Of a DNA stretch of 64,000 bases, positions 13,110 through 31,694 are shown in pieces. Numbering within the stretch: position 1 is the stretch's first letter; each line of letters starts with the position of its first letter. The translations under genes were made by a program, and so were the position numbers. Location: assembly GCF_026625885.1 (NCBI RefSeq), contig NZ_CP113068.1, positions 6,324,001 to 6,388,000 on the forward strand, written 5' to 3'. Under the pieces are notes generated by a model. The model did no database searches, had not been told where the DNA came from, and saw only the letters and a program-made list of their open reading frames with translations. The DNA is from Roseateles sp. SL47 (GTDB lineage Bacteria; Pseudomonadota; Gammaproteobacteria; Burkholderiales; Burkholderiaceae_C).

Positions 13110-13204
13110 GGAATTTCCTTCTAGATCAAGCATTTATGCTGAACTACTCTGCATAGGCATTGATGCCAAGTTAGAGTAAATTCAAGATCTGGGTGTCCCA
13201 AAGA

Positions 13205-13242: not shown

Positions 13243-13252
13243 GCGGACTCGC

Positions 13253-14017: not shown

Positions 14018-15991
14018 TCAATCTTTGCCTGGCGCTGCAAACGCGAGACTCGCTTGTGACGCGGTCTGCATGACCTTCGCAGACAGGTCCGCGCCGGACA
14101 CATCCTCGTAGCGTGCCGGGATTCGCTCTTTCAAGCGGAACAACCGCTGATGAGCCGACCGCGTGAGCTGGCCATAGGTCACGGCCTGCACCCTGCCACG
14201 CAGCACGCCCTCTTCTTTGAGTTCGATCTCGCGCGTGGTCTTCGCGGTGATCTCATGCCCGACGACGAACGCGCGGAACATCGGCGTGCCGTCGAGCGCG
14301 CCGCTGCCAAGAAAGTCCTGGACATAGCCATTGCCCTGGTTCATCTCCTCGCGGCCGATCGCGGAGCGGCCCTTCTTCAGCTCGATGATCAGGACGTTTT
14401 GGATCCGCGTCAGCGTGGGATCGGCCGCGTCGAATCCTTCGGTGCCGACAATTGAGCAGGTTGCATCGGCCAACGTCATGATGTCGGGGCGCTGCTTGGC
14501 GTTGATGAAGGCCTCTGTCGACAGTCGCTTCTTGAAAACCTTCTCGGCGGCAGTGCGCAGGCTGACGTTCGACGAATATTCGCTACTGTCGAACTCGGGG
14601 CCGAATAGCCATCGGGCCTGAGTCACCAGCGGGTGCAGCGTGTGCAGTTCGTCGGCCGCTTCGTCGCCAGCGAGCTTCTCGATGGCCACGATCACCGCCA
14701 GGCGATGGTCGATTTCATCCAGCACTGACAGCGCGTCGCGAACCGTCCACTGGCTAAGCAGACGATCGAGCCCCTCGATGTCCGATTCGTCCAGCTTGGT
14801 GAGCTTTTCGAGCAGCGCCGCGCCGCCGCGCGCCTTCTCGATGTTGATCAGCGCCTGCACTGCGGCCGATAGCACGTCCTGGGAGACGGTAGGCGTGGCT
14901 TTCACCAGATCGCGAGCGAAGCTGGCCACCTCCGCTCGGCCCAGGGGCGAAAGCTCCTTGAAGTCCTCGCGGTTCTTGACGAGGGCTTCTTCGGAGCTCT
15001 CCTCAACCAGCGTCGCGGAGAGCTGCGCGAAGACTTTCTTGGCATAGTCGCGTGCGGCCTCGAAGAGGGCATCGACCTTCTTGCCGCTGCGGAAGCGGAC
15101 CCAGTCTTGCTCGACTTCAGGCAGCCAGCCGTCATCGGCCTTGATGACGATTGAAAAGCGCTTGGCGAAGCGCGCCCGGCCGTCGATCACAGCCTCCGCG
15201 CCGACAACCCAGCTTGGCACTCCGACCAGGCGCCCGTTCACCCAGAATGCAATGCCTTGGTAGAGCGTGTATTTGGCCGTCCGCGTCGTGTCGACTACGA
15301 AGGCCTCGGCCGGCGGGCAACCAGGGATCTCAAGATCCTGCTTCTCGATGAGTCCCGTTTGGTCGGCCAATGCGACCGACACCCCATTGACCCGGACGAC
15401 GAACTGAGGATCGTGGACGAAGCGGCCTGCCAGGATCTCCCGGATGGCGTCAGCGTCGGGCAGGTGCCGCTTGACGATGACGGATAGCTTGGTCCCATGC
15501 CCCTTCCGGAGAAACGAACCCTCCTTCTCTATCTTGAAGGGGTTCTCTTCGCTCTGGGTGCCGATCTCGAAGCTCGCTCCCTTGTCCTCCCGCCAGGTCT
15601 CCACCGAATACTGGTCGGCGAAGCACAGCAGTCCGTGACGGCCGACGCCATTGCGTCCATAGGCCCTGCGACGCCAGCCTTGGCGCTCCGGCGGGAACTC
15701 GACCTGCGAGCTTTGATGCTTGAGGCGGTCGTAGCCCAGCTTCATCCATCGGCCTTTGAACTGGCCCGCATTCATGCCATGGCCATCGTCCTCGACCGTC
15801 AGAGCAAGCTCATCGGTGGGCGGGATCGTCAGATCCACGAGCGACGCGCCCGCATCCCATGCGTTTGCAACGAGCTCGGTGAGGGCGACCTCAGGGTCTT
15901 GGGCGATGCGCCCAAGCGTTCGGACGAGATAGTTCTCCTCGAAAAGCGATCCGGTCGCCGCGTCCGCCTCAGGTTTCGTCTTTGCCACCAT
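14018..15991 (-). CDS. GHKL ATPase (MORC/MutL/Hsp90-type) with C-terminal E-x-K nuclease-like segment
   Basis: A 657-residue protein with an N-terminal Bergerat-fold ATPase. The N box is ELVANAWDAGA (general base Glu39, metal-binding Asn43, Asp46), the G1 box is VEDDGHGM (Asp69, Gly72), the G2 glycine loop is GRNGVGRHG (112-120), and GHGTKLSV resembles the G3 box. The pattern is closest to MORC, MutL and Hsp90 ATPases rather than histidine kinases: no H box or receiver is seen. Around residues 525-555 the sequence NVLIIELKKGRSAIGREE and a following Gln/Tyr-containing stretch resemble the core strand of PD-(D/E)XK nucleases, but the first acidic residue of that motif is not clear. The gene starts 36 bases after the HNH gene and is the last of the operon. 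MORC/MutL-type ATPases are known in complex restriction-modification loci, which supports a DNA-loop or clamp role here. Confidence 0.85.
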   Translation of the reverse strand: MVAKTKPEADAATGSLFEENYLVRTLGRIAQDPEVALTELVANAWDAGASLVDLTIPPTDELALTVEDDGHGMNAGQFKGRWMKLGYDRLKHQSSQVEFPPERQGWRRRAYGRNGVGRHGLLCFADQYSVETWREDKGASFEIGTQSEENPFKIEKEGSFLRKGHGTKLSVIVKRHLPDADAIREILAGRFVHDPQFVVRVNGVSVALADQTGLIEKQDLEIPGCPPAEAFVVDTTRTAKYTLYQGIAFWVNGRLVGVPSWVVGAEAVIDGRARFAKRFSIVIKADDGWLPEVEQDWVRFRSGKKVDALFEAARDYAKKVFAQLSATLVEESSEEALVKNREDFKELSPLGRAEVASFARDLVKATPTVSQDVLSAAVQALINIEKARGGAALLEKLTKLDESDIEGLDRLLSQWTVRDALSVLDEIDHRLAVIVAIEKLAGDEAADELHTLHPLVTQARWLFGPEFDSSEYSSNVSLRTAAEKVFKKRLSTEAFINAKQRPDIMTLADATCSIVGTEGFDAADPTLTRIQNVLIIELKKGRSAIGREEMNQGNGYVQDFLGSGALDGTPMFRAFVVGHEITAKTTREIELKEEGVLRGRVQAVTYGQLTRSAHQRLFRLKERIPARYEDVSGADLSAKVMQTASQASLAFAAPGKD

Positions 15992-16027
15992 GCCTCCCCT
16001 TTTTGTTTGAGCCGATAGTTAGGTATC

Positions 16028-16918
16028 TCACGAATCGTCGTCCATTGGATACCAAGCCTGATAGCGCGCCGATGTGATGGCGACTCGATCACCCTTCTCT
16101 TTGAGGTTGCAAGGGCCGCACAGTAACTGCAGATTGGTGACATCGTTGAGGCCCCAGCTCGCCAGGGGCACGATGTGGTCGTAGTGCTCGGTGTCTTCCA
16201 GGCTTGCCATACGACTCAGATTAAGATTGCACATCACACAATGGCCGCGGTCGCGATGGAAGACAGCGTCCTTGGCCCACTTCGGCGGTTTTACGCGGAC
16301 CAGCATTCGATCGTCCATCAGCAGCGACCTATCCAAGTCATCGGCCTCATCAAAGTTAACGCGTCCGAGGATGCGGGAGATGTAGGCATTGAAGTCACGC
16401 ATCACCATCCGGTTCTGAAATAGAACGTGGAACACCCCGTCGACAGTGATATTCATGAACTTCTCGTAGGCCTCGGAGAGCCAGACTTCCGACATGAATT
16501 CGTAAATATCGTCATCGTCGGCATCCGCAAAGCTCTTGCCCATGTCAGCGAGATGCTCGATGAAGCTTTGATGGCCGATGCCGTGATAGTCGAAGGCCTC
16601 TTCGATCGGAAGCTTGCATGGGCGCATGTGGGGGAGTGCTTCGGGGATCCGTTCGAAGGACTTCAACATCCTCTTGCGTTCCTCCAAATCCACGCCATCG
16701 GATTCCTCTGCATGGACCTGTCTGACCGAGAACTCGATGAACTGGTGGAGAACGGAATACTTCTGAAAGGGCCTCAGCCATCCCGCCCATTGCCCGTCGC
16801 AGTGAAAGCCATCCAGTATGCGCAGGTGGTCGGAGGTGTTCCTGATCACTCCATCGACGATCGAGCACAGGCTGTACGTTTCATAGTGCCTCGCCTCGAA
16901 GATCAAACCTGCCTTCAT
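16028..16918 (-). CDS. HNH nuclease domain protein, operon gene 7
   Basis: A 296-residue protein. The C-terminal third holds a classical HNH domain: CVMCN (about residue 234), then EHYDHIVPLASWGLNDVTN with the His/Asn core, then LLCGPCNLKEKGDR. The N-terminal two thirds are acidic and helical (for example FADADDDDIYEFMSEV) and match no family I can name; they may bind a partner. It lies 36 bases upstream of the GHKL ATPase gene and about 100 bases after the Hsp70-like gene on the same strand, so an operon is likely. It could be the effector nuclease of the system, which is inference from position. Confidence 0.85.
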   Translation of the reverse strand: MKAGLIFEARHYETYSLCSIVDGVIRNTSDHLRILDGFHCDGQWAGWLRPFQKYSVLHQFIEFSVRQVHAEESDGVDLEERKRMLKSFERIPEALPHMRPCKLPIEEAFDYHGIGHQSFIEHLADMGKSFADADDDDIYEFMSEVWLSEAYEKFMNITVDGVFHVLFQNRMVMRDFNAYISRILGRVNFDEADDLDRSLLMDDRMLVRVKPPKWAKDAVFHRDRGHCVMCNLNLSRMASLEDTEHYDHIVPLASWGLNDVTNLQLLCGPCNLKEKGDRVAITSARYQAWYPMDDDS

Positions 16919-17021
16919 TGATCCACCCCTCCAACACGCTGCGCGCGCAAATCCCTGTTAACGCAGATCGGCAGCGCTGACGCCCCACCTCCCAGCGCGT
17001 CGGCCCCGAACTCTGACAGAT

Positions 17022-18821
17022 CTACATCTGGTCCTTTGACACGAAGGCACTGTCACGAACGGACGGCTGATACCGATCTGCATCTGGCACCTCGATCGCC
17101 CTGACGATTGATCCAAGTGTGGTGTCGCCGTTACCGGCTAGGCTCAGTCCGTACGCTACTGAGAGCCGATCAAAGTCGTCAGCATGCCAGCCGGACTCCA
17201 CGAGATCCGGCGGTAGAGGCAGGCGCATGCTCTCGACACTGACGTCCCAGCCTCGAGTTCCGTTGATGGAGTCACTGATGGTTCCGTAATACCGCATCCG
17301 TGATCCGCCTCCGCACAATAGAAGCGGAATGCGGGCGAGTTGGGTCGATGGAATGCCCTTACCCACCTTTGCATCGTTGATAGTGCCTGCAATCTGCGCG
17401 CGGTAGCGCTCGTTCCGGAACCGATCATCTACGTCAGTTCCGACTAGCTCGATGGTGTATCCCCCAAGATATTCGCGAACCGACTCCGGAATGGGTCTCA
17501 GTCGGTCGGTCGGCTTTCCTATCGCTTCCAAGTGTTCGAACGCATCGGCGTGTTCCTGCCCTTTGGGCAAATGCGCCTGCAACCATTCGACTCTCGACCT
17601 ATGGAGACACATAGCTCCATTGAGCTCGACCCTGCTCGAATAGAAAGTAAGGACGCCCTGCCCACGCTGCGGGGCACGCACATGAAAGAGCGCCGAATCC
17701 ACAGTGCCAGCGCCGACATCGACGAGCATCATCACGGGGCGCGAATTCCAGTCCCAGCGTGCCGATGACATGAAACCCTGCAGCTGCGCACTAACTTCGG
17801 GTATGGCGTCTACATCGCTCCAGGCGAACTCGCCCCGGCCAACGGGCTTGCCCAAGGCTTCATCCAAAGAAGCGAGCCTGTACTTATCAACCGTCGCTAC
17901 AGTTATCGCTGCAGCATCGCGGTCACTAGCGAGATTGGCGGCCGCCCAAGCCAGTCGACGGAACAGCGCTACCGTGGCCGCGTCTTCGTACGAGCGAGTA
18001 GCCAGCCCTAGGTTCAAACGCCAGCCAAGTGCATGCCGAGAGTACACATCCCTGTGCTCGGAGAGCATCCAGCCTCTGACGCGTCGGATGACTAGAGCCA
18101 GGAATGCGCAACAGTCATTGAACTCTGTCACCGGACTCCGCGCCTTGCATGCGAGCAGCCCCAGCTTCAGGTCCGTGATCCGATGCGCTCCCTGCACCAG
18201 CGAGTAGACCTCGCCGGTCCGGAAAACCCGCGAGGGCAGTAGGTAGCCGTCGATGCCTGGAAGCCCCCGACTCAGCGGAACTGGAAAGACGCCGGTCGCC
18301 GCGAAGGCATCTCGCACGACAACCTTCGTCGCCGATGTGCCGAAGTCGAGCCCGATGATGAGGTCCGTCGCATTGTCCGGCTCCTCGGTGAGCTGCCCCT
18401 CGATGCCGCCGTTGGGAAGGTCAGGCAGACCAGCCGGCTCCGAGGGATCCGGCTGGAAGAGGGGATGCGAGTGGAATGGCGACACTCGCACGAGCCGGGT
18501 CACCGGGCGCGGCGGCGCAGGTGCAGGAGCCTGCGCTGTCGGAGCCATCTTCTCCGGCGTACTGACAGTCCGCGCAGCTTTGCGCGCCCCCTTCGCCTCA
18601 GCCGATCTCTCGGCGGGGGCCGGCGACGCACGACGGACCTGATCCTTCCAGTACGCCAACTCGCCAGCCGGCCGCTCTGCCTTGCCGATCCCCGCGACTC
18701 CTTGCGAATGCGAAAGCGCCGCTGTCTCTGCCGGGCGACCGGGTCTCGCCAGTTCGGCCCCTTTCGAGCCGCTCAGGCCCAGCGCCTCTAGTGCATCCCT
18801 CAACTGGGTTCCGAGCTTCAT
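17022..18821 (-). CDS. Hsp70/actin-fold ATPase, defence-operon member
   Basis: A 599-residue protein with an actin/Hsp70-type nucleotide-binding domain after about 150 residues of Pro/Ala/Arg-rich, probably disordered sequence. The phosphate-1 motif is LIIGLDFGTSATKVVV (about 157-172), phosphate-2 is LVDVGAGTVDSALF (about 366-379), and the adenosine motif is LCGGGSRMRYYG (about 504-515). No substrate-binding beta-sandwich or lid of canonical DnaK is visible after the ATPase domain. It starts 18 bases after the SNF2 helicase gene, so it is co-transcribed with it. A chaperone-like or ATP-gated scaffold role inside the complex is inference. Confidence 0.85.
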   Translation of the reverse strand: MKLGTQLRDALEALGLSGSKGAELARPGRPAETAALSHSQGVAGIGKAERPAGELAYWKDQVRRASPAPAERSAEAKGARKAARTVSTPEKMAPTAQAPAPAPPRPVTRLVRVSPFHSHPLFQPDPSEPAGLPDLPNGGIEGQLTEEPDNATDLIIGLDFGTSATKVVVRDAFAATGVFPVPLSRGLPGIDGYLLPSRVFRTGEVYSLVQGAHRITDLKLGLLACKARSPVTEFNDCCAFLALVIRRVRGWMLSEHRDVYSRHALGWRLNLGLATRSYEDAATVALFRRLAWAAANLASDRDAAAITVATVDKYRLASLDEALGKPVGRGEFAWSDVDAIPEVSAQLQGFMSSARWDWNSRPVMMLVDVGAGTVDSALFHVRAPQRGQGVLTFYSSRVELNGAMCLHRSRVEWLQAHLPKGQEHADAFEHLEAIGKPTDRLRPIPESVREYLGGYTIELVGTDVDDRFRNERYRAQIAGTINDAKVGKGIPSTQLARIPLLLCGGGSRMRYYGTISDSINGTRGWDVSVESMRLPLPPDLVESGWHADDFDRLSVAYGLSLAGNGDTTLGSIVRAIEVPDADRYQPSVRDSAFVSKDQM

Positions 18822-18839
18822 TCTTTCCCCCTGCGCCCC

Positions 18840-21800
18840 TCACTCCACTAGCACCACCCCGGCACAGACCAGCGTCGAGTCGTGCGCAAGATCCCTGCGC
18901 TTGCGGAGTCGGGCTCGCCGCTCTTCCGCACGCTCCTTCACCTTGGACAGCCGCCCCTCGTTGGCCTTGATCGTTCGCGTCTTGCCCTGCGCACGCAGAC
19001 GATGAATGAGTTCCTGGAGACGCAGGATTTCGCGCGCCTCCTGACGGTCGATCTGGTCCAGCTGGAATGCGATCCGGTCCCGGTTCTCGCGCCCCGCATT
19101 CGCCGTGAACGCCGCATAGCGGCGATCGAGCGCCTCCGTCACGAGATCGAATGCATCCCCGACGGCATCGCCGTTCAGTTGCCCGGTTGCGGCCGGCCAA
19201 GGCTGCCCGAGCATCGCGGCCACCGTAACGAGGCGTTCGGCGGAGTCTGGATCGAGTCCACGAGCTTCGCCAAGACGAACGGCTTCGAAAGCAAGGCGCT
19301 CCGAGTCCTGCTCGCCGCTCAGGCACCACCGGTGGACCGCGAAAACGTGGACCCCGGCAGCGGCGCCTGGCTCGTCCGTGGAAGCCAGCCGCATCGCCGA
19401 AACCACAGCGGTGCGGTGCCGATCTTCGGCGTCCAGCCTGCGGCGCACGAATGAGATGAGCGGGTGGTACTGGGAAATCGACTCGGCGTCACTCCGGCTC
19501 CTCTTCAGGAGGTTCTCGAAGACGCAGGGCTGGCGTCCGCTAGCCGCCACCGCTAGGCGGGTACGGCTTTGCAGACGCTCCCTCTCGAGGAAATCAGCGA
19601 AGTCCGCACGAACGGCCGGGCCGAGATCGATCTCCCATACAGGTTGCTCGCCGTCGCGGATGCGAACCAGCTGGGCACCCTGACAGTACTCGTCGATGAA
19701 GTCGCTGACATAGGACTGAATATCCTCGGATGTCACGTATCGGTTCAACTGTCGGGCTGCCGCGATACGCTGCTGCAGATAGTCACCATGCGCCACGAGC
19801 CGCCCGGCCTCCTGCTCCAGGTTGTCCTCGATGCGAGACCGTTGCTCGACCGCGACGCACGTCTGCTCGATGACTTCGTTCTCCTCCTCGTCGGACAGCT
19901 CGTGCCGGAGCAGATCGAAGCTCATCTCGCGGATCATCTCGCCGAGGATGCCTTCAATGCTGCCCAGCGCGCGCTCGAAGATCCGCAATCGTTCGAAGAG
20001 CCTGACGTAGACTCGCTCATCGAGCGAACCGCCGAGGAAGAGATTCAGGATCACGATCCGCTCGGCCTTCTGGCCGATGCGGTCGATCCGACCGATGCGT
20101 TGCTCGATTCGCATCGGATTCCACGGCAGGTCGTAATTGACGAGGAGCGCCGAGAACTGGAGGTCGATGCCCTCGCTGGCCACTTCCGAGGCGAGCAGGA
20201 GCCGCGGCCCGTCCGGTGCCTTGAACTTCGCAAGAGCCGACGGCTTGTCCATGCCACCCATCAGCACCACCGAGTCGACACCGATCTCTGCGAATCGCTC
20301 GGCCAGGTACGTCAGCGTGTCTCGGAAGTACGCGAAAAGCACGACCTTCGCACCTCCCGTGCGCTTCCAGTACTCGAGCAACTGGTCACGCAGCTTCTCA
20401 AACTTCGAGTCGTGCCTGCGCAAGGCGTCAAAGTCGCCGACTTCCCGTGCGATGCGCGACAACTGGGCGATCAGGCTGTCGGCATTGACCCGCTTCCCGC
20501 CCCTGCTGTCGAACGAAGGGTCGTCGCCGAAGGCGTCCCACAGGATCTGGTCGATCTCCTGTTCCAGGTCCCTGCTCCGGCGGGACCAGGACCTGCAGGC
20601 AGCAGCCATGGAACTGCACATCTGTCGCTGCGGGATCGTGAGCAGGAAGCCCTCGGCCATGTCGAGGTTCCTGCAGTACTTGCGCACGGCCGCGGTGACC
20701 TGGTCATAGAACTCCGCCTCCACGGACGACATGTCGGCTCGCAACGCCACCGGCTGACGAACGACCCTGCGCTCGTGAACATCCCGCTTCCGCGTCCGGG
20801 TAACAACCTTGGTGATTGGATTGATCCGGTCGATCTGCTCGGCCAGCGAGAGCCTGCGACCCACATCGATGAGCGTCTCCTCGTCCAGTGGGGACGCCAG
20901 CAGGAACTGGAGAGCTTCGCTCCGCTCGGCGACCTCCGACGTGCGAACGTCCTGCAACGCCGCCTCGATGGCCTCGATATCGGGCTTGCCGCGAAGCAGT
21001 AGATCCCGCAGTTCGATCAGTGGTGCGTTCTGCTGCAATGCGTGATCGAAGGACCATTCGTGGGGGAAGGAATCGCTGTCCACCAGGTTGAGCAGATGGA
21101 ACAGATCCGAATTGCGAAGGTGGACAGGCGTCGCCGAGAGAAGCACCAGATTACCGGCCATCCCGCGCAGCATCTGCCCCAGCTTCGCAGTCTGTGTCTC
21201 CGGATTCCGCATGTAGTGCGCCTCGTCAATGATCACGAGGTCGAGCGGCGCATCATCGCCGGCACTGTCGTCGGCGATGCGCCGGAAGCGCGCGGCCAGC
21301 GACTGCTCGTCATCGTCGTCCTCGACGTCCGCCAGCGCTCTCAAGCCCTGCATGCTGGCGATCATGGCGAAGGAGGTCCTCAGGTTGCCCGCCGCGTTTT
21401 CCAGAGTTTCCACGGCTTCTTGCGCATTGCACTTCCGCGCTTCGACGCCGAACCGGTCCGCCAGTTCCTGCTTCCACTTATCCTGCAGCATCGCGGGGCA
21501 GAGCACGAGCAGACGGCGTGCATCTTCCCTGCTGCGAAGCTCGGTCCAGATCAGTCCCGCCTCGATCGTCTTGCCGAGGCCCACCTCGTCGGCGATGAGA
21601 ATGCCCCGCGAAGGCGAATCGAGAAAAGAAAGGACAGGCTTGAACTGATACGCGTAGAAGTCGGTGTTGGTCGTGTATAGGCTGTAGATGAGATCGGCCA
21701 GCTTGCCGCCCAAACGGGCGTGCGTGAGCGCCGAACGCAGGTCTCTTGGCCGACCGAAGCGCAGCTGGCGCATGTCGGCGAAGGGGTTAGCACCTTCGTC

Positions 21801-21968: not shown

Positions 21969-22139
21969 ATGTGGCCGACCCTTTGCATGAGGCGATGATC
22001 TCCCGCGGGTGGCTCACTGGATGAGCCATGCTGTCCGCGCTGCCCGCCTGCGTTCATGGGAGGGCATTCCACTTCGCGAGCCGCCCGATGGCCCTGAGCT
22101 TGCCCATTCCCAGTACCCCAGGGACAAGTCCCGGGACAG

Positions 22140-23879
22140 CTACTCATCCTTAGCGCTCGCTGCCATCCTGGATGCGAACGCTGCGGCCTGTCCGGCATAG
22201 GCCGGGCGAGCGCTGTCCTGGAGGAAGGTGTGGAGGAGACAACGGGCTCGTGACAAGCCAGCGTAGTGCAACATCGTCCGGTCGGGCTGTCCGATATCTT
22301 CCATGTCGATGGCAAGCACCACCATCCGCTCAAGACCCTTAAAGGAATGCATCGTCGCGAAGACCAGATCTCCGTCTTTCGCCGCAGCAGCATCGACCAG
22401 CGGGACCCCTCCGAGGCTACTGACGTCTGAAACAAGGGACTTGTCGCGGGCCCGTGTCGAGAGGATGGCGATGTCCTGAGGGCGGATGTCCTGCCTGAGC
22501 AGCCTTGACACCGTGGCTTCGAGCAGTGCCAGCAGCGCCTTCCGATCACGCGCGTAGGCGTTTTCGCACTCGGGCCCTTCGGGCGCTCCCTCGATCGCGA
22601 GATCGATGCCCGAGATGATCGAGGCCTGTACCGCGACCTGGCGCGTGTTGCGGCAGTTTTCGAACAGATCGTCGAATGCCGGTTGCGCTTCGGCCAGTCG
22701 CTTCTCGACGAGATCCTGGACCTCGACGCCGTAGATATTCTGGTTCCGATCTAGAAAGATGTGCCATCGCCCACGATTGATGCCGGCATCGCCGAGCATC
22801 AGGTCGAAGGCATCGATGTTGTCGGGCGTGAGGAGATCCTGCGCTTCGTCGATCACGAGCGCGTCCCAGGACGGGAGTCCGATCTCCAGCGATGCCTCCA
22901 CGAAGGTCCTCGGGAAAACTTCGGCGAACAGTTCCTGGTCGTTGGACGCCGCTCCTAGCCTGTCCAGAAGGCCAGCCTTGGAGATCACCTCCCGATACAG
23001 CAAATGGACGTGCCTGACGTCGATCCTTTCGGCAAGAGGGTCGGTCGCGAGGCCCGAGCAAACATGTCTGGCCAGCAGCTGATTGAAGCAGAGGAAGAGG
23101 ACCCGGAGACCTTGAGCAGCGAGCTGTCTTGCTCGTTCGACAGCGATCACCGTCTTGCCGGTGCCGGCCTTGCCCCTCACGATCGTCCGCGGGTTCGCAG
23201 ACATGCGCCGCGACGCGCGGATCTGGTCTTTGGACAGCTGGACCAGCTTGGACTCGACGCCGGTCAGGTAGCTTCCCAGGCTGAAGGCCGACTCGACGTC
23301 GGGTCGCAGCACCTGCCGCGCTCGCTGGATGTCGCTCTTCGTCGGCATCCTCGGCGTGCGGCCGTGCTTTGCCTGGTATGTTGCTATCCAATGCCTCTGC
23401 AACCGCCCGATGTAGTAGCCGAGGTTTGCCCTGAACTCGCGCTTGTCGAGCAGGACCGCAGGCTCGATCTCCGCACCTGTGGTCGTGAACGTTTCCATGG
23501 GCATCACGACACCGAAGCCATCCAGGATGCTTTCGAAGGCCGGGGCGGCCTCGATCAGCTTCTTGCGGACCGCGAACATGGTGCCCTTGGCCTGCGTCCA
23601 CGGATCCTCACGCTTCTCGTACGAGCCGCTGTCAGGGTTGCCGAAGGTCCAAACGCCATCGAGGCACGAGACCCGGCCCCCCTTCACCTCGAGCGAGAAG
23701 AACCCCTTGGTCGACAACACGACGATGTCCGCCTCGCCCCAGATCTTGGTCTCGTGGCCGTGCAGCCCGAGCGAGTGCAGCACGATCCAGTCCGCATCGA
23801 GATCGCGCCCCAGCTTCTCGTAGACGATCCGCTCGCCATACGGGCACTTCTTGGGCTGGTCCGGAATGAGGGTGGCCAT
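22140..23879 (-). CDS. NERD nuclease-related domain fused to SF1 (UvrD-like) helicase
   Basis: A 579-residue fusion. The N-terminal NERD domain (about residues 10-110) shows the expected pattern YGERIVYEKL, then WGEADIVVLSTKGFFSLEVK with the Asp and the E-x-K pair of a PD-(D/E)XK-like fold. An SF1 helicase follows: Walker A RGKAGTGKTVIAVE, motif II VIDEAQDLL, a LFENCRNTRQV motif IV-like stretch, motif V MHSFKGLERMVV and motif VI YAGLSRARCLL. The frame is open 63 codons further upstream, but the ATG at 23879 is preferred: it lies 4 bases after the drmB stop and the extra codons are low-complexity. Helicase-coupled DNA cleavage is the likely activity. Confidence 0.9.
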   Translation of the reverse strand: MATLIPDQPKKCPYGERIVYEKLGRDLDADWIVLHSLGLHGHETKIWGEADIVVLSTKGFFSLEVKGGRVSCLDGVWTFGNPDSGSYEKREDPWTQAKGTMFAVRKKLIEAAPAFESILDGFGVVMPMETFTTTGAEIEPAVLLDKREFRANLGYYIGRLQRHWIATYQAKHGRTPRMPTKSDIQRARQVLRPDVESAFSLGSYLTGVESKLVQLSKDQIRASRRMSANPRTIVRGKAGTGKTVIAVERARQLAAQGLRVLFLCFNQLLARHVCSGLATDPLAERIDVRHVHLLYREVISKAGLLDRLGAASNDQELFAEVFPRTFVEASLEIGLPSWDALVIDEAQDLLTPDNIDAFDLMLGDAGINRGRWHIFLDRNQNIYGVEVQDLVEKRLAEAQPAFDDLFENCRNTRQVAVQASIISGIDLAIEGAPEGPECENAYARDRKALLALLEATVSRLLRQDIRPQDIAILSTRARDKSLVSDVSSLGGVPLVDAAAAKDGDLVFATMHSFKGLERMVVLAIDMEDIGQPDRTMLHYAGLSRARCLLHTFLQDSARPAYAGQAAAFASRMAASAKDE

Positions 23880-23883
23880 GTTG

Positions 23884-25782
23884 TCAGTCCGCGAGGTCGT
23901 CGAAGTAGCCCTGCCAGTGTCCGAACTCGGATGTCTCCGGCGAACCGACGAGCATGGTTCGATCAAGCTCGCGGTTGAACTTCTCGCAGGCGGTCTCCGG
24001 GACCAGCAGACAGCAATGGCAAGCAGCGCCGCTGACGCGGTCACCGGACTGGGCAGGATCGGTCTCAAGACACACCGGATCGCTGCCGCACCAGCGCGCG
24101 TTCCTGATGGTCTGCAGAACGATCCTCTCGAGCTGTTTCGGGTCGGCCAGGCGCACCAAGCCGCCTAGACTGCCCTCGGAGTCGGGCGACCCTGTGTAGA
24201 TCAGGACGCCGTTCATGGCTGGACGCAATGGATCGGCGTCGCTCACGTAGAGCCTCTCGCGGAGCGCCGATGAAGAGTAGCCGCAGTCGATCGAGATCGT
24301 GCGGATCAGCGCATGCGCGAAGGAGTGGACCAGCAGCAATCTTGCCGTGATCCGGTAGTCGCGGAGATAGCCCCGATCGTTGGCGATCGCCGCGGAGCGC
24401 GTCTCCAGGACACGGACCCGCGCCGAGATGTCCGGATTGGCTTCCACCCAGGCGTCCACGGTCTCGGTCCGGAACCGGAGGAACATACCCTCGCCGCGGA
24501 TCTCGGCCGCCGGCAGCCAATTGCGAGCCGTCTTCGACAGTGGCGAGACCTGCCCGTCCTGTATCGCCTTGGCGATGCGTTCACCGCTGACCGGAAAGGG
24601 CTCGATGCGACTGAAGCCTGCGAGCGCCCTCACTTCGCGCAGACGCGAGACCGCACCGACGAGGTCGAACCATCGCGCGATCGCCTCAGGCGGGTCCGAC
24701 ACAGCATTGCAGAACTGCGGCGCAATGCCTCCCACGATCGGATCGTCACGGTCGTTCGAGAGAGCCGCATACTCCTCGGCCCTGGAACCCGCGTCGGTGA
24801 ACTCGCCATGCGTACCTTCGATCTTCTGCTTCTCGCGGTAAGCGGCCATGAGCGCGTCGAGCGGAATGTCATAGGTGTTCGCGAGGTTCGTGAGAACGGG
24901 CGCAACAGCTTCGGCCGGAAGCGCACCAAGGGTCATCCAGTGCCCCTCGATGATCTGGAACGTGGCCTCCGAGACCGGTGGAATGGACAGCGCGGACGCC
25001 ACCACGGGAAAGTGTGCGTTCGATGCGCCGCGCTGGATCACGCGTGGCGGCGAGTCACAGCCCGGTTGCCTGTCGTGCAGCCAGGGACGTCTGCCGTAGC
25101 AGTTCGTGCCCTTGAGACTCTCTGGCCTGAACGCATCGCCCATGGACTCCGAGGAGCCGCACTTCTGGCAGTGCACGTATAGATCGGCAAGCGCGGCCGA
25201 TTTGCCTCTTGACTTGAGTTCGAGTGTGGGCCGGTCGCACACGCCTCCGTCGCGCCTTCGATGCGCCCACCATGCCCACGGAAACTCATCCATGTGGCCC
25301 TTGCGACAGGCGAGGACGAAACGGACTGGCGTGGTGAATACCGGTCTGCCGTGCGCGGTGCACTCCAGCTGGCTTCCGTCGGCAGACAACTGGAACGGGT
25401 CGCCCTCGGTTCCGATGCGATGGCACTTCGGACACTCGTGCCACGCCGGGAATCGAATGGCAGGCGCCGAGTGCGCAGGATCGACACGGCCCGATGGACC
25501 GAGATCCTCAGACACGGGAGGCAAGCGGAAGTGGCTGACCCCGAGCTGTGCCTGGAGCCGTGCCTCACCGATGGTGAGCGAGGGCAACCTGGTCGCACTC
25601 TCCCAGTCCTCCAGGCCCATGGGCATGAAGGACCCCTTCTCCAGATCAATGATGGCACCGATGCCGTAGGTGGCGATCAGCTGCGATCGGCGCACCTTGC
25701 CCAGAGGCTCCACTCCCGCGACGGCCGCCGGACCGGCCTTGGCGGGCGCTCTTGACCGGAAGGTCTTCTTCGCTGTGGCCAC
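23884..25782 (-). CDS. drmB: DrmB-type protein (DUF1998)
   Basis: A DUF1998-containing protein of 632 residues that in DISARM forms a complex with the DrmA helicase. The DUF1998 core reads LLVHSFAHALIRTISIDCG, followed by the YTGSPDSEGSLGGLV segment. The C-terminal cysteine cluster CGSDPVCLE...ACHCCLLVPETACE is typical and probably binds zinc; another Cys pair (CPKCHRIG) lies near the N-terminus. The start is decided by the ribosome-binding site: a GTG at 25782 overlaps the drmA stop (TAGTG) and has a perfect AGGAGG six bases upstream, inside the end of drmA. An ATG further up would make an 88-base overlap and is less likely. Confidence 0.9.
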   Translation of the reverse strand: MATAKKTFRSRAPAKAGPAAVAGVEPLGKVRRSQLIATYGIGAIIDLEKGSFMPMGLEDWESATRLPSLTIGEARLQAQLGVSHFRLPPVSEDLGPSGRVDPAHSAPAIRFPAWHECPKCHRIGTEGDPFQLSADGSQLECTAHGRPVFTTPVRFVLACRKGHMDEFPWAWWAHRRRDGGVCDRPTLELKSRGKSAALADLYVHCQKCGSSESMGDAFRPESLKGTNCYGRRPWLHDRQPGCDSPPRVIQRGASNAHFPVVASALSIPPVSEATFQIIEGHWMTLGALPAEAVAPVLTNLANTYDIPLDALMAAYREKQKIEGTHGEFTDAGSRAEEYAALSNDRDDPIVGGIAPQFCNAVSDPPEAIARWFDLVGAVSRLREVRALAGFSRIEPFPVSGERIAKAIQDGQVSPLSKTARNWLPAAEIRGEGMFLRFRTETVDAWVEANPDISARVRVLETRSAAIANDRGYLRDYRITARLLLVHSFAHALIRTISIDCGYSSSALRERLYVSDADPLRPAMNGVLIYTGSPDSEGSLGGLVRLADPKQLERIVLQTIRNARWCGSDPVCLETDPAQSGDRVSGAACHCCLLVPETACEKFNRELDRTMLVGSPETSEFGHWQGYFDDLAD

Positions 25783-28700
25783 TACGCACCTCCTGTCTTG
25801 CGAGGAATGACCTTGAGGACGAACGCTGTGGACGGCTCGACCTCGCGCATCGTGTTCGGTGTAGGCCACGCGAGATTGCCGGCAGCGACACCCTCTTCCG
25901 CCGAGTACATGAGATGCGGAGCCGTGCGTCCGAATGGCGCTTTCTTCTCCCAGTACCGGAGGCGACCGGACGCGGATCGCGCGTCATGGCTTCTGCGTCC
26001 CCACGTCTGGAGGATGGCATCAAGGTCCGCCTTTGTGTCCTCGGCTTCCATGCCTTCGGAGACGGCCGACACGCGCAACAGGATCGCCTGGACCAGATCG
26101 TGGACCGCTTGACTGGACGGATCGAAACGCGTCGCGTCCTCGTCGCCTCCCAGACCGGGCACAAGGTGCCTCACGACGGAGGCGACCACCGCGTGCAGCG
26201 CCTTGTCCCTGGCACGCGGCGCCCATGGCGTGACACTCGTGGCCTCGACGCTTCGATAGAGCGCACTGTGATAGCTGCGGAAGTGTTCGAAGTGGGACAG
26301 GTCCCTGGGCCGTCCGAAGTTGTAGAGCGTGATCACCAGGCCCGGGATGCCGCGACCGACCCGGCTGCTGGCCTGGATGTACTCGGCAGTCGACTTGGGT
26401 TGTCCGTTGACGACCATCAGCCCGAGCCGCGGCACGTCCACGCCAACCGAGATCATGTTCGAAGCGAGGACGGCATCCTTCGGCGCAGCGAATTCGAACG
26501 GATCGGCCTTGAACTGCGCGAGTGTCGTCGAGAGCGCATGGAGCAACCCCGGCAACTCGCGCGACGACTTGCGGCTGCTCAGCTCCTCGGGTTCCAGCTC
26601 GAGATCGCGCCTCTTCGCGGCGAGACGCCCCGCGAGGAACTGCATCTGGCGCGGGACGTCATCCTGCATGAGGACATAGGCACCGCCCAGCTCTCGTAGG
26701 CTGTTGAAGTACGCGACGCAGGTCCAGTACGCGTCGATCGATGCATCGTCGGCCTGGCCTCGCTCGGCAAGCGTCGCCGCCGATTGGAGCAGTGCCGCTA
26801 TCACGGCCTGTAGTGCGAACTTCGGGCTGCGCCCTGCAGTCGGGATGCCGATGTAGAGCCTGTCAGGACCGGCGGAATCGCGGACCGCGAAGAAGGAATC
26901 CGACGCATCGAACCCGGGTGGCGGGAACTGCAGAACACTCCTGTCGAAGAGGGCACGCACCTGCTCGGCCGCGTGACCAATGGTGGCTGTCGAGCCGATA
27001 ACCTTGGGCCGCACCTTGCCCCGGGTGCAGATGAGATCGACGATCGTCTCGTAGAGACCTGCCATCGATCCGAGCGGTCCCGATATGAGGTGCAGTTCGT
27101 CCTGGATGATGAGCCCCGGCGGCAGCCCGCCATCGAGGCCGAAAATGCGCCTGATGTCGGTTCGTCTCGGCAGCTGTGCGAACTTGTCGATGGTCCCGAT
27201 CAACAGCGACGGTGGAGACTCGTAGATGGTGGCATCGACGGTCAGGACGGGCAGCGGCCGGCCACCCGTCTCGCAGTCCGTCTGGCCGCAAGTGATGTCG
27301 ATCCGTGGCTGCAGGGGATCGGCCCGGTACGCGGTCCCCCTGAGCTCCGATCCGCACACCGGGCAGCGGAGCAGTTGCCGCGGCGTGGACTTGGGCTTCT
27401 GGTCCGCGTGCTCCTGCTCTAGCGCCTCCCGCGCATCCTCCATCAGGTTCGGCGTTGCTTCGCCGCCGACGTAGAGCCCGAGCGAGATGCGCGCCTCACC
27501 CAGACGCATGTCGGACTCGCGGATCGCGTCGCACGCGGAGATGAGGGATGCGGCGCGCTGAAACTGCTGCACGGTCAGCAGCCGAAGCGTGTAGCGCATC
27601 AGAACGTCAACACCACCATGCTCGCGACGGTGTCCGTCGGTCAGCCGCCGGTGGAAGATCTGGAATGCCGTCAGCGCGAGATAGGCTTCGGTCTTGCCGC
27701 CGCCGGTCGGGAACCAGAGCAGGTCCATGCATTCGCGATCGTCCAGGCCAGGATCAGCCAGTCCGGGAATGACCAGCAGCATGAAGGCCAGCTGGAAGGG
27801 GCGCCACTGAAGCGGTCTCGGATGTTCTTTGGCGCGATATCTCGACTGTCGATCCATTGCGGCATTAGCCAGCGCGAAGGCGCTCCAGGCAGCGCCATCG
27901 CTGCGGAGCTTGTCCACGCCAGCTCGGATGCGATTCAGGGTCGAACTGCATCTCTCGAGGTTGTATTCGGCTGCTTTCCGCAGATCCCCATGGAACTCCG
28001 CGAGGCGAGCGCGCAGGTGCCGGTCGATCCACTCCGCGTACCTATCCGCGAAAGCCGCGAGTGCCTCGACGACGGCCGCACGCTCGGACTCCCGTGAGAG
28101 GAACTCGGCCTTCAGCGCATCCGGATAGGAAGTTCTGAACTCGTCGAGGAAGGCGTGGCCGTCAGGACTAGTGCCAAGCACGCGGGTGTCGGGCAGCCAG
28201 GCCGTGCTCACATGGCCGACGGCCGCGATCGCATCCGGCGGCCAAGTGGCGGCCACACCGTGTCCCACCGCGAACTCGCGAACGTCCCGGTACAGCAGCG
28301 AGTTCACCAGCGAGTCCTCGTCGCCGCCCGTGACCGGCGGCGCACTCCGGGGGTAGATGCCCGGCGACTCGTCAACAGTCGCTTCGACCACGATGCCCGC
28401 CTGGAACAGGCAACGCGCATCACGGGGTCCGGCATCCTCGTCGTCAGGCTCCTCGTTGATCAGCGTCACGGTGTAGACATGCTGCGCAGGTCCGATGCGC
28501 CTTCGGACGTGGAGCGCAAGGCGCTTGTCCGTGATGCTCACTCCTCGGGCGTCGACGAACTCATTGATGCGGAGGGTTCCCGACTGCTCTGCCGGCGACA
28601 GGCGGACCGAATAGCCCAGCGGACTGCGCTTCCACGCCTTGCGAACCTGTGCGACCTTTGGCGCTGGCTCCTCCGCGGCGGAGGCCGGGTTCGAATCGGG

Positions 28701-29045
28701 GGCGAGCTCCACCGGCGCGTACCGGGAGGTTTCCCCTAGGCCGATCGTGACCGTCGCCTCCTTGGCCACGGCGAACGTGATCCCGATCGAGCACGGACGG
28801 ATGGCGCGGTATCCAGGGATCGAGGCCTCCACCGCCGACGCCGGATCACTGCCGCTGTCGAGCCCGGCGTCGTCGTCCGTTCCGTCCAAGGCTGCGCCGC
28901 GCGGCCAGAGGATGCCGGTCAGGTAGGTGTCCACTGGCGCGGACTCGATGATCTCGTCGGGAGCCAGCGGCCCCATGAGCAGTGCGCTCGCTAGTCCGGC
29001 GAGATCCGCCCTTACCTGCTCCTGTTGCTTGTGGTCATTTGCCAT
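25782..29045 (-). CDS. drmA: DrmA-type helicase
   Basis: A large helicase of about 1087 residues with the DISARM DrmA layout: a long N-terminal region, a P-loop DEAD-like core and a helicase C domain. Walker A is FPTGGGKTEAYLALTAFQ (about 453-470), Walker B is IIQDELHLISGPLGS with DE-L-H in place of DEAH, and SVGVDVPRLGLMVV and ASSRVGRGIPGLVI are motifs V and VI. A zinc-like CPVCGSEL sequence lies between. The ATG at 29045 overlaps the upstream helicase gene by 11 bases and is preceded by GGAAG; an ATG eight codons earlier is also open. DrmA and DrmB are the defining pair of DISARM. Confidence 0.9.
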   Translation of the reverse strand: MANDHKQQEQVRADLAGLASALLMGPLAPDEIIESAPVDTYLTGILWPRGAALDGTDDDAGLDSGSDPASAVEASIPGYRAIRPCSIGITFAVAKEATVTIGLGETSRYAPVELAPDSNPASAAEEPAPKVAQVRKAWKRSPLGYSVRLSPAEQSGTLRINEFVDARGVSITDKRLALHVRRRIGPAQHVYTVTLINEEPDDEDAGPRDARCLFQAGIVVEATVDESPGIYPRSAPPVTGGDEDSLVNSLLYRDVREFAVGHGVAATWPPDAIAAVGHVSTAWLPDTRVLGTSPDGHAFLDEFRTSYPDALKAEFLSRESERAAVVEALAAFADRYAEWIDRHLRARLAEFHGDLRKAAEYNLERCSSTLNRIRAGVDKLRSDGAAWSAFALANAAMDRQSRYRAKEHPRPLQWRPFQLAFMLLVIPGLADPGLDDRECMDLLWFPTGGGKTEAYLALTAFQIFHRRLTDGHRREHGGVDVLMRYTLRLLTVQQFQRAASLISACDAIRESDMRLGEARISLGLYVGGEATPNLMEDAREALEQEHADQKPKSTPRQLLRCPVCGSELRGTAYRADPLQPRIDITCGQTDCETGGRPLPVLTVDATIYESPPSLLIGTIDKFAQLPRRTDIRRIFGLDGGLPPGLIIQDELHLISGPLGSMAGLYETIVDLICTRGKVRPKVIGSTATIGHAAEQVRALFDRSVLQFPPPGFDASDSFFAVRDSAGPDRLYIGIPTAGRSPKFALQAVIAALLQSAATLAERGQADDASIDAYWTCVAYFNSLRELGGAYVLMQDDVPRQMQFLAGRLAAKRRDLELEPEELSSRKSSRELPGLLHALSTTLAQFKADPFEFAAPKDAVLASNMISVGVDVPRLGLMVVNGQPKSTAEYIQASSRVGRGIPGLVITLYNFGRPRDLSHFEHFRSYHSALYRSVEATSVTPWAPRARDKALHAVVASVVRHLVPGLGGDEDATRFDPSSQAVHDLVQAILLRVSAVSEGMEAEDTKADLDAILQTWGRRSHDARSASGRLRYWEKKAPFGRTAPHLMYSAEEGVAAGNLAWPTPNTMREVEPSTAFVLKVIPRKTGGA

Positions 29046-31098
29046 TGCGCTTCCAGGTCTTGAAGTCACCCGTGCCGAAGAGCGTGATGCCCAACCACAG
29101 GCGGCTTGACCGCCAGGGTTCCGGGACCGCCTCGTCAGCGTCGCCCCGGGCGCACAGGGTGACGATCTCGCCGATGCGGAGATTGAAGATCGTGTTCGGC
29201 AACCACAATCCTTCGTTCCACAGGTACGCGAGGAGATCGTCGGTCACCTGCTGGGTGGTCCGTGCGAGCCTCCGGCCGGCCTTGGTGCCTTCCTGCAGGC
29301 AGATTTCCCATCGCGCATCCCGCATACGGGATTCCTCTTCATCGGAATCCAGCCGCTTCAGTATGACCTTGTGCCCGCGAAGCTGCGCCGCTGCGGACGC
29401 AAGCATCTGCTGCAGTTCGGTGACCTTCTCGCCGCCGCCATGGAATTCGGCGTCCACGAGGCTCTGAGGGTCGATGTCCCCCGCAAGACCGAACTGGAAA
29501 TTCGTCAGCCTTCCGGTCTTGCCGGGTGACCCAAGCATCGCGAAGCGACTTCGTCCGGTTCGGAGCGATTCGTCGTACGGTCCCGCATACACGCAATCGG
29601 ACGGTATCCTGTTCAGCACCTTGCCCGCCCGTGTCACCGCGACGAATCCGACGTTCGCGAGTTCCAGCGGATCCTCGGGTTCCTTCTGATTCTTCCTGGC
29701 GCGAGGGTCGAGAAGCGACACATTGTCGAACTCCATACCCTTGGCCTGGTGGACGGTCGTGATGTAGACAACGGCTTGCTCAATCGTCTGATCGTCGGGA
29801 AACGAATCGGGCCATGGGAGCCGTTCGCGCAGATCTCCCATGTCGATCGACGTGGTGTCGTCGCTCGCGCCACTGGCACGCGCGAGCCTGCTCCAGCAAG
29901 CCTGAAGGGATGGCATGTTCAGCGCCGTGCGCGCCTCCGGAGCAATCTCTTCCAGCGCCTTTTTGTAAATCAATTCGAACGTCGATCTAGCGACGCTCTG
30001 GGGCTTGAACCGCCAGAGTAGTGCAGCGATCCAGGCAGGTGCCGGCGGCGTCTCGCCCGCGGTCCGAAGTCGAACCGACACCGTCGGGCCTTCGACCTTA
30101 TCCCCAAGCAGCATCTTCGCAACTCGCAGAGATTCGCCGTTGGTGCGTGTCAGGATGGCTACGGAGCCCGCAGGCAGACTCGCGAGCCATTCAGAACTGA
30201 GCTGAGTTTCCGCTGGCATTCCAGGGATCCGCTCCAAGAACCGCTCCATAGCGGACAGCTTCCTGGGGGCGGTGAGATCCTCACTCTGCAGGATCTTCCG
30301 CAGACTTGCCGCCATGATGGCCAGTTTCTCGGTGGAACGATAGTTTCGCGTCAACGACACCTCGCGCAGCTCGGGCCCCATGACAGTCTCGAGCCGTTTC
30401 CATGGATCCTCGTCCAAGCCGTGACCGCTCGCGCGTGCCGCCCATCTATAAATCGATTGAACGGGGTCACCCAGCACCGTGAAACCTACACGTCGGCCAT
30501 CCACATTTAGGCGAGATAGAAGCGCGATGACCATAGCTGCGCGGACACCGGGCAGGTCCTGAAACTCATCGACAATCACATGGCGAATGCCTGCAAGTCG
30601 ATCGGCAACGACTGAATTCGCTCGGTCGGCTAAGGCGGCTGTGGCCGCCTCGATGTTCTCGTCGTGCTGCCGGCCCAACAGTTGCGGCACGGCCGCACCG
30701 CACTGCCTGAGGATTCGGAACGCCCAGGAGTCGAAGGTGCGGATTGCCAAGTGCCGGAGGTCCTCCACGACGTGCTCGTCAGCGAGATGCAGTCGGGCAA
30801 TGCGGCGGGTGAGCATGGCGACCGCACTTCGAGAGAAGCTGAGGACCAAAATTTGCGCCGGCAGCAGGCCCGTGCTGATGAGGTGCGCAAGCCGCATCGA
30901 CGCGACCTGCGTCTTCCCGGTTCCAGGTCCGGCTACGACCAGCAACCAATCCAAAGGCGAAGCGCTGATAACAGCAGCCTGCTCGGGATCAGGTACGAAC
31001 TTTTCTACCGCAAATGCACGAGGGCCGAGCCCCGCCGGCTGATGAAGACTCGCACCGCCGATGCCTGTAACCTCGTCAATCTGTCCGGCTCCCCCCAC
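29035..31098 (-). CDS. UvrD/Rep-type SF1 helicase, first gene of the defence operon
   Basis: A 687-residue superfamily 1A helicase. Motifs: Q-motif-like PDPEQAAVISAS, Walker A VAGPGTGKTQVASM (about 55-68), motif II VIVDEFQDLPGV, motif III VLGDPVQSIYRW, motif IV LTRNYRSTEKL, motif V TVHQAKGMEFDNVSLL and motif VI VAVTRAGKV. The start is GTG at 31098, giving MGGAGQIDEV. The stop codon lies inside the start of drmA, so translation is coupled. It is the first gene of the eight-gene minus-strand operon; vsr is divergent 122 bases away. It is a second SF1 helicase in the same operon in addition to the NERD fusion, which is unusual. Confidence 0.9.
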   Translation of the reverse strand: MGGAGQIDEVTGIGGASLHQPAGLGPRAFAVEKFVPDPEQAAVISASPLDWLLVVAGPGTGKTQVASMRLAHLISTGLLPAQILVLSFSRSAVAMLTRRIARLHLADEHVVEDLRHLAIRTFDSWAFRILRQCGAAVPQLLGRQHDENIEAATAALADRANSVVADRLAGIRHVIVDEFQDLPGVRAAMVIALLSRLNVDGRRVGFTVLGDPVQSIYRWAARASGHGLDEDPWKRLETVMGPELREVSLTRNYRSTEKLAIMAASLRKILQSEDLTAPRKLSAMERFLERIPGMPAETQLSSEWLASLPAGSVAILTRTNGESLRVAKMLLGDKVEGPTVSVRLRTAGETPPAPAWIAALLWRFKPQSVARSTFELIYKKALEEIAPEARTALNMPSLQACWSRLARASGASDDTTSIDMGDLRERLPWPDSFPDDQTIEQAVVYITTVHQAKGMEFDNVSLLDPRARKNQKEPEDPLELANVGFVAVTRAGKVLNRIPSDCVYAGPYDESLRTGRSRFAMLGSPGKTGRLTNFQFGLAGDIDPQSLVDAEFHGGGEKVTELQQMLASAAAQLRGHKVILKRLDSDEEESRMRDARWEICLQEGTKAGRRLARTTQQVTDDLLAYLWNEGLWLPNTIFNLRIGEIVTLCARGDADEAVPEPWRSSRLWLGITLFGTGDFKTWKRNGK

Positions 31099-31209: not shown

Positions 31210-31220
31210 TCGTGCTCACC

Positions 31221-31694
31221 ATGGCCGATATCGTCAGCCCAGCCAAGCGCAGCCAGATGATGTCCGGCATCAAGGGCAAGAACTCTCTACCTGAGATGCT
31301 GGTCCGCAAGGCGCTGTTCGCGATCGGGCACCGCTTCCGACTGCATCGGCGTGACCTGCCAGGCACGCCCGATATCGCCATGCCGGGCCGCAAGATCGCG
31401 ATCTTCGTTCACGGCTGCTTCTGGCACGCGCACCAGGGGTGCAAATACGCCAAGATGCCATCAACGCGGCCTGAGTTTTGGGCGGCCAAGCTCCAGGGCA
31501 ATGTCGATCGTGACCGACGCGCTGCCGACAAGCTCGCGGAGATGGGCTGGCGGGTGCTCAATGTCTGGGAATGCTCAACGCGTGACCCGGGGTCCGCTGC
31601 GGAATTGCCTTTGGCGCTCAGAGCTTGGATCGACAGCGGTGCACCTGCGGGTGAAATCAGCGCTCAAAGCCTCGCAGCGGCCTCCTTGCGATAA
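31221..31694 (+). CDS. vsr: Very short patch repair endonuclease
   Basis: Vsr nicks DNA 5' of the T in T:G mismatches that arise when 5-methylcytosine deaminates, so it is a companion of cytosine methyltransferases. The 157-residue product begins MADIVSPAKRSQMMSGIKGKN, the family N-terminus. Asp51 (LPGTPDIAMP) and the IFVHGCFWHAHQGC block with His64, Phe67, Trp68 and His69 match the catalytic and intercalating residues of the E. coli enzyme. The ATG at 31221 is chosen over a GTG at 31212 because it gives this N-terminus. It is the only plus-strand gene in the defence region and points away from the operon. Confidence 0.95.
   Translation: MADIVSPAKRSQMMSGIKGKNSLPEMLVRKALFAIGHRFRLHRRDLPGTPDIAMPGRKIAIFVHGCFWHAHQGCKYAKMPSTRPEFWAAKLQGNVDRDRRAADKLAEMGWRVLNVWECSTRDPGSAAELPLALRAWIDSGAPAGEISAQSLAAASLR

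Follow-up and report, generated by a model that had tools for sequence, protein, structure and literature searches.

What kind of system is encoded by the eight co-directional genes lying between positions 14,018 and 31,098 of a 64,000-nucleotide stretch of Roseateles sp. SL47 DNA (contig NZ_CP113068.1, positions 6,324,001 to 6,388,000; hereafter the window)? An original prediction, made from the sequence alone, had read them as one DISARM-like operon that uses DrmA and DrmB as a module. The eight minus-strand genes were confirmed at their predicted positions, and the likeness to DISARM is borne out by profile matches of DrmA and DrmB and by PADLOC matches to DrmA and DrmD. The notion of one eight-gene unit proved too broad: the genes do not make up a single conserved eight-gene system, but are divided by the comparative loci into three parts, namely a quartet (UvrD-like helicase, DrmA, DrmB and a NERD nuclease–helicase fusion), a pair (a DrmD-like SNF2 helicase and an Hsp70/actin-fold ATPase, here called the Hsp70-like protein), and the HNH and GHKL genes. 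As a gene set, the prediction was right in that all eight are present, and it missed a cytosine methylase and a Vsr gene nearby. The conserved unit consists of six genes plus Vsr and usually the cytosine methylase, in two separable modules. Judged by its sequence, the locus is a new DISARM-like variant with a putative anti-phage function. We consider it somewhat probable that it represents a composite DISARM-like restriction system, in which a quartet near class 1 DISARM has been joined by an independently mobile DrmD–Hsp70 module, and in which the HNH and GHKL genes are local additions.

The six genes from UvrD to the Hsp70-like gene occur in one order in the window and in genomes G001, G003 and G005, and also in Ramlibacter (G002), where type III Res and Mod genes are inserted between the NERD gene of the quartet and the DrmD–Hsp70 pair. 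The two modules are 171 bases apart in the window (NERD-helicase to DrmD-like helicase), and about 750 bases containing a 120-aa open reading frame (ORF) separate them in G001. UvrD lies directly 5′ of DrmA in these four nearest relatives (G001, G002, G003 and G005; identity 69, 56, 61 and 44%, respectively) and likewise in the plasmid loci L134–L138. The full UvrD–DrmA–DrmB–NERD order was found in nine loci: the window, its four nearest relatives and four entries of the plasmid collection that come from alphaproteobacteria, namely one of Azospirillum, two of Rhizobium and a 4.6-Mb record of Shinella. The NERD-helicase gene thus lies 3′ of DrmB in eight loci besides the window. Tsukamurella has UvrD–DrmA–DrmB and no NERD match. 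The quartet is found without a directly adjoining DrmD–Hsp70 pair in L134, L135, L136 and L138; in Shinella the pair is situated about 46 kb from the quartet. Other partners are present in these plasmids: a SNF2-type helicase and a large protein of no known family in R. ruizarguesonis, in Azospirillum a SNF2-type helicase matched only in part (65 bits) where the stretch ends, and, in R. rhizogenes, a DUF2357 gene with a weak ATPase match, which we take to be McrC-like. The large proteins of L134 (1353-5132, minus strand) and L135 (6516-9482, minus strand), from Azospirillum and Rhizobium plasmids, are 30% identical, are encoded divergently from the quartet and gave no Pfam match. Searches recovered 457 relatives of the UvrD protein at E 1e-20 and 191 of the Hsp70-like protein at E 1e-5, close relatives of the latter being 60–79% identical. 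When 120 listed relatives of each were compared, at least 15 contigs of exactly equal size (at least 18 kb) were common to both, out of 38 (Hsp70) and 48 (UvrD), which suggests that both genes reside on those contigs. UvrD relatives of 46–49% identity were also seen in Pseudomonas (P0209, P0210, P0218 and P0222), on contigs of 0.3–6.6 Mb.

DrmA matches the solved DrmA structure 7s9v (E 3.7e-153) and has GGGKT and DELH motifs, and the NERD-helicase has ADIVV...EVK, GKAGTGKT and DEAQD. The match of DrmB to NF038324 begins at residue 56, and the real start codon may be as many as about 55 codons further downstream. In a quick IQ-TREE tree of 21 DrmAs, from which duplicate and truncated copies were omitted, the nine quartet DrmAs form one clade (SH-aLRT 100; two of the nine are labelled UvrD-only, the fetched piece ending before NERD), and four class 1 DISARM DrmAs together with that of L020 form a second (SH-aLRT 99). 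The joining of the quartet clade, the class 1 clade and Tsukamurella is not firm in this tree; by sequence, the quartet DrmA lineage appears near class 1 DISARM.

The locus might also be an ordinary class 1 DISARM that has picked up a few accessory genes. DrmA and DrmB are neighbouring separate genes, as in the DISARM core, and the window shares with class 1 (Serratia sp. SCBI type) the DrmD-like SNF2 helicase and a cytosine methylase and Vsr gene nearby; an annotated class 1 operon on a Microvirga plasmid likewise has cytosine methylase, Vsr, DrmD, DrmA and a DUF1998 protein. However, the window adds UvrD, the NERD-helicase and the Hsp70-like protein, its DrmA falls in another clade, and its DrmD-like helicase stands elsewhere in the helicase tree and scores 407 bits against NF038317, the NCBI model of DISARM DrmD, under the cut-off of 610. 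Neither a PLD family such as that of the DrmC nuclease was found among the scanned operon and flank ORFs, a scan that covered the small ORFs in part, nor a DrmMI adenine methylase (PglX/MmeI-like) among the scanned ORFs of the 8–39 kb region, and DrmC has been reported to be dispensable and often missing (PMC9142583; this and the other papers given by PMC number are cited for the parts covered). The genome of the window itself harbors a second, ordinary class 1 DISARM (C1:5238382-5253685; DrmB 775 bits and, with the NCBI model, DrmD 1419 bits), around which no Hsp70, NERD or UvrD match was detected in 37 kb. An ordinary class 1 system with additions is, in our judgement, quite unlikely. A search with DrmB gave matches in 13 of 369 genomes, nine of them over the cut-off, and contexts were examined for those nine. 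G358 and G216 look like the ordinary DISARM of the window's genome. In five of the six remaining genomes, a more distantly related NERD-helicase lies near DrmAB (139–224 bits; L098, L099, L100, L101 and L102), with cytosine methylase and/or Vsr matches in three of these five, and none of the six, the sixth being a 9 kb contig, showed a UvrD of 100 bits or an Hsp70 match. L098–L102 are possibly further DISARM-like classes.

The DrmD-like helicase and the Hsp70/actin-fold ATPase form a near-obligate pair adjoining many restriction systems. One scan of species genomes with an alignment of the Hsp70-like protein yielded 43 loci, in 38 of which a DrmD-like helicase lies at most 50 bp upstream of the Hsp70-like gene (37 by ORF calls, L005 by match positions). 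The distance is 214–781 bp in three more (L026, L034 and L043), and the helicase was unmatched in two with little upstream DNA, L009, where the contig ends, and L019. Since these loci had been selected through Hsp70, the survey was also started from the helicase. Among plasmids, 656 records matched, of which six cover at least 80% of the helicase, and the Hsp70-like gene adjoins it in all five examined (Aminobacter, Sphingobium, Leptolyngbya, Cyanobacterium and Shinella; the sixth, Sphingobium CAP-1, was left out, and Aminobacter and Shinella were also recovered from the Hsp70 side). A survey of 369 genomes of the class with NF038317 gave some match in 335 and five over the cut-off. Of its 30 best loci (L104–L133) only L110, with 1296 bits, falls into the helicase clade of the window, and it has an Hsp70-like gene; the other 29, including the five over the cut-off, score at most 315 bits and show no Hsp70-like gene in flanks of about 1.5 kb or less. 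The Hsp70-like gene is thus adjacent in six of six helicase-selected loci of the clade. The scores of 80 helicases compared were either at least 1020 or at most 315 bits, with none between, and 45 of the 46 high-scoring ones have Hsp70 within 600 bp, the exception being L043 (781 bp); one low-scoring helicase was counted as linked, the second helicase of L010, which lies beyond the Hsp70 gene. On a FastTree helicase tree, which has several long branches, the linkage label changes three times compared with 26 in shuffles, and helicase and Hsp70 distances correlate with r = 0.91 over 43 pairs in which both proteins are long enough (a set differing from the 43 Hsp70-selected loci), the best of 2000 permutations giving 0.18.

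In taxonomic terms, 33 of the 43 loci belong to Pseudomonadota, five to Acidobacteriota and one each to five other NCBI phyla; the latter are open to binning error because each comes from one metagenome-assembled genome. With the cyanobacterial plasmids added to the seven phyla, the pair spans eight. Independence of the GHKL, HNH and Hsp70-like genes from drmAB, which the original prediction had said would tell against it, was found in part: drmA/drmB stand beside the pair in five of the 43 loci (upstream in L004, L006 and L008, divergent in L020, and in L005 by a later upstream stretch; at least 3 kb of DNA precedes the helicase in 31 of the 40 loci where it is strongly matched, and in some it is short), yet the Hsp70-like gene is tied to the DrmD-like helicase, and HNH and GHKL accompany it in none. 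In L010, L016, L018, L020, L030, L032, L038, L039, L042, L043, L046 and L074, the pair was seen with type III Mod/Res, Eco57I/MmeI-like methylase, GmrSD or McrC-type genes, several of which were assigned only via a sequence cluster with a scanned representative. On the Leptolyngbya plasmid (L076:9641-15099) the order is reversed, with the Hsp70-like gene first and the SNF2 helicase second; in an incomplete gene table, the nearest annotated neighbours are cas genes on the upstream side, at 7 kb, and a transposase on the downstream side.

Such company could mean that the locus is a defence island of unrelated neighbouring systems in which the DrmD–Hsp70 pair works alone. The pair does stand elsewhere beside type III, Eco57I/MmeI-like, McrBC and GmrSD genes, and on the Leptolyngbya plasmid it is near transposases with no other annotated defence gene adjoining. 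However, quartet and pair keep their order and strand in five genomes, with no long gene between them in four, and we regard the island as unlikely. A further possibility, to which we give appreciable weight though short of calling it probable, is that DrmD–Hsp70 is an autonomous, unnamed two-gene defence motor serving DISARM-like, type III, Eco57I/MmeI-like and McrBC systems, in which the ATPase would gate the translocase, the quartet then being a third kind of DISARM.

The model predicted for the Hsp70-like protein comprises a conserved N-terminal helix, a low-confidence linker (residues 17–92) and a nucleotide-binding domain at about residues 152–579 of 599, with the Hsp70/actin/MreB nucleotide-binding fold and its phosphate motifs present. 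No substrate-binding domain was seen in the predicted model, only a low-confidence tail after the nucleotide-binding domain, so that the term "chaperone-type" used in the original prediction was too strong. The nucleotide motifs are invariant in 31 sequences of the family, and L7, A10, L11 and G15 of the N-terminal helix are nearly so. Sequence searches of the PDB with the protein, its profile and a piece of it gave nothing meaningful, the fold comparison alone being informative. PDLC04731 (PDC-M61B), an unnamed candidate model of PADLOC, matches the family weakly, up to 40 bits, and across the 369 genomes this model gave weak matches only (at most 34 bits, in 60 genomes). As for viral relatives, none of 25 pattern matches in viral contigs was confirmed.

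Gene content, gene order, conservation, clades and this predicted fold are the basis of the composite reading, and from them we infer each catalytic or regulatory step as well as defence. The gene cluster probably destroys phage DNA. Host DNA would be marked by the cytosine methylase, and T:G mismatches arising by deamination of methylcytosine would be repaired by Vsr. Serratia DrmAB is described as activated by 5′-overhang single-stranded DNA and as sensing methylation (PMC9142583); by homology, DrmAB may be loaded and activated by unmarked incoming DNA with exposed single-stranded 5′ overhangs. DrmD would translocate on duplex DNA and pass it to the UvrD helicase and the NERD helicase–nuclease for unwinding and degradation, these two presumably occupying the place of DISARM's PLD nuclease DrmC. 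The Hsp70-like protein could be bound to DrmD through its N-terminal helix and flexible linker, and, instead of folding proteins as a chaperone does, control DrmD as an ATP-driven switch or clamp; the simplest role would be that of an ATP-state switch on DrmD, given the intact nucleotide motifs and the lack of a substrate-binding domain in the model. Which nuclease destroys DNA in DISARM, and what DrmD does, are described as open in the parts of PMC9142583 covered. The nuclease question becomes testable with a variant that has a NERD nuclease–helicase beside DrmB and in which no DrmC was found, and an Hsp70-fold ATPase that is nearly always beside one SNF2 helicase clade, near many restriction systems, points to a principle of control undescribed for DISARM in the literature searched.

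The HNH and GHKL genes behave differently from the six others, and are taken as a separate, locally added restriction-type pair. Neither was found in any of the 43 Hsp70-selected loci, 31 of which have at least 3 kb after Hsp70 and 11 less than 1 kb, nor was HNH found in the four nearest systems, where GHKL was likewise missing save for one weak domain match in G003. The latter (L066:6108-8321, minus strand) lies between UvrD and Vsr and amounts to 41 bits and 31% identity over about 120 residues, not the whole length; some GHKL protein may thus go with that system at its other end, and the G003 contig ends 1 kb after Hsp70. Full-length relatives of GHKL exist elsewhere, with 30–33% identity over most of the protein on eight plasmid records, and the three contexts viewed contained no match to other window proteins, drm included. 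The two best HNH relatives come from Rhizobium plasmids, near a cluster of helicase, ATP-binding protein, HNH, type II enzyme, Vsr and Dcm. The GHKL protein gave no PDB sequence match at E 0.01; it has a C-terminal PD...ELK stretch, which we take to resemble a PD-(D/E)xK nuclease. One could still imagine that HNH and GHKL are integral effectors of a single new eight-gene system: the eight genes share a strand and are closely spaced, the G003 match would fit, and MORC/paraMORC GHKL proteins have been described with helicases and HNH nucleases (PMC2292703), clusters which those on the Rhizobium plasmids resemble. Yet the failure to find both genes in the related loci (31 of 43 with at least 3 kb after Hsp70) and HNH in the nearest systems, the GC content of HNH (0.550 versus 0.62–0.66 in the six-gene core) and the lack of drm matches in the three contexts viewed for plasmid GHKL relatives make this very unlikely.

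Several points nevertheless weigh against the composite reading, the G003 GHKL match being one. The 43 loci were chosen via the Hsp70-like protein, so that the linkage count is biased, and the helicase-selected loci of the clade number only six. The ORF in the 700 bases that precede Hsp70 in L019 does not match any helicase. As the similarity to PADLOC DrmD is strong, the window's helicase differs from DISARM DrmD only in degree; a tethering role of the N-terminal helix is a guess from its conservation; and no cytosine methylase match was found in 30 kb of G003.

Vsr starts 113 bases from UvrD, on the opposite strand and divergently, and the methylase lies beyond a gene for a 316-aa protein. 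Among the nearest relatives, Vsr is present in all four and the methylase in three (G001, G002 and G005; 41–58% identical), at positions relative to the operon that vary. Of the plasmid quartets, L135, L136 and L138 match both and L134 neither, so that one or both accompany seven of the eight other quartet loci. The 316-aa protein had no match in PADLOC or NCBIfam and no relative in the fetched loci searched, and is probably not part of the system.

The assertion that no named system has this composition held, in that none was found in the open-licence literature; nor was a report there of the DrmD–Hsp70 pair or of the quartet, subscription papers being mostly outside that coverage. The covered parts of PMC12839542 and PMC10853773 mention neither Hsp70 nor DISARM. 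The DISARM classes were reportedly defined by Ofir et al. in 2018, class 2 being said to have DrmE and DrmMII. The window's cytosine methylase shares with class 2 its best PADLOC match, DrmMII; unlike class 2 the window has a DrmD-like helicase, and no DrmE was among the PADLOC and NCBIfam matches listed for the operon proteins, Vsr, the methylase and the 316-aa protein. ARMADA type II resembles the locus in combining RapA-like, YprA-like and GajB-like UvrD helicases and a methylase in one operon. Its YprA-like helicase and DUF1998 form one protein with a C-terminal Vsr nuclease, and its GajB-like UvrD helicase has an N-terminal RelE domain, whereas the window has DrmA and DrmB split as in DISARM, no Vsr match in DrmA at E 0.001, a GajB-like UvrD without a RelE match in a Pfam scan, a cytosine-C5 methylase, a NERD-helicase and the Hsp70-like protein (PMC12458937). 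The same source describes ARMADA, BRIGADE and TALON, and holds that the DISARM-like clade contains many uncharacterised classes. A YprA-like/DUF1998 DISARM-like cassette near McrBC, and Hsp70-like proteins in restriction operons (CnuD of CoCoNuT), are likewise known (PMC11090510); by description, CnuD is set apart by degenerate Walker A-like motifs, the nucleotide motifs here being invariant. McrB and McrC were not found at the window locus; a McrC-type gene adjoins the pair of L074 and a DUF2357 gene the quartet of L136. With MORC/paraMORC and HgiDII/BbrUII systems the window has in common that a GHKL ATPase and an HNH nuclease are encoded close to a cytosine methylase and Vsr, but only its two 3′ genes are alike, and the NF050001 score is far below the cut-off.

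Features of the locus in the window, with the matches on which their assignment is based.
Feature	Coordinates	Strand	Basis
GHKL ATPase	14018..15991	-	PF13589; NF050001 BbrUII/HgiDII 107 bits (cut-off 550)
HNH endonuclease	16028..16918	-	PF01844; GC 0.550
Hsp70/actin-fold ATPase, 599 aa	17022..18821	-	predicted fold
DrmD-like SNF2/RapA helicase, 1042 aa	18840..21968	-	PADLOC DrmD 834 bits; Hsp70-linked clade by HMM score and tree
NERD nuclease–SF1 helicase fusion, 579 aa	22140..23879	-	NERD PF08378; PADLOC RTasNERD-Hel 108 bits
DrmB (DUF1998/MZB protein)	23884..25869	-	NF038324 516 bits (cut-off 240)
DrmA, YprA-like SF2 helicase, 1095 aa	25782..29069	-	PADLOC DrmA 741 bits; NF038325 922 bits (950 required)
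UvrD-like SF1 helicase, 687 aa	29035..31098	-	Pfam PF00580 8e-26; PADLOC GajB; first gene of the quartet
Vsr mismatch endonuclease	31212..31694	+	PF03852 4e-28; TIGR00632 148 bits (cut-off 98)
316-aa protein, no assigned family	31786..32736	-	best Pfam DUF4577, E 0.026
Cytosine-C5 DNA methyltransferase	32863..34428	-	PF00145 1.5e-43; PADLOC DrmMII 306 bits
HipA-like kinase gene	35024-36403	-	5′ of the cytosine methylase; not among the conserved genes

In a set of 100 genomes, made up of that of the window and 99 related ones, the Hsp70-like family was found in the window's own genome and otherwise as one 55-residue fragment (E 7e-4); it was found in none of 15 other genomes of the genus, which makes the locus accessory. 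Integration at the tRNA-Pro gene (13033-13109) was considered and rejected: the window has no second copy of the last 16 bases of the tRNA that would support an attachment site, and no 13-mer of 13041-13300 recurs downstream on the same strand. Outside the locus, the minus strand of the window also carries two very long ORFs, at 48451-56664 (2737 aa) and 57447-63866 (2139 aa).

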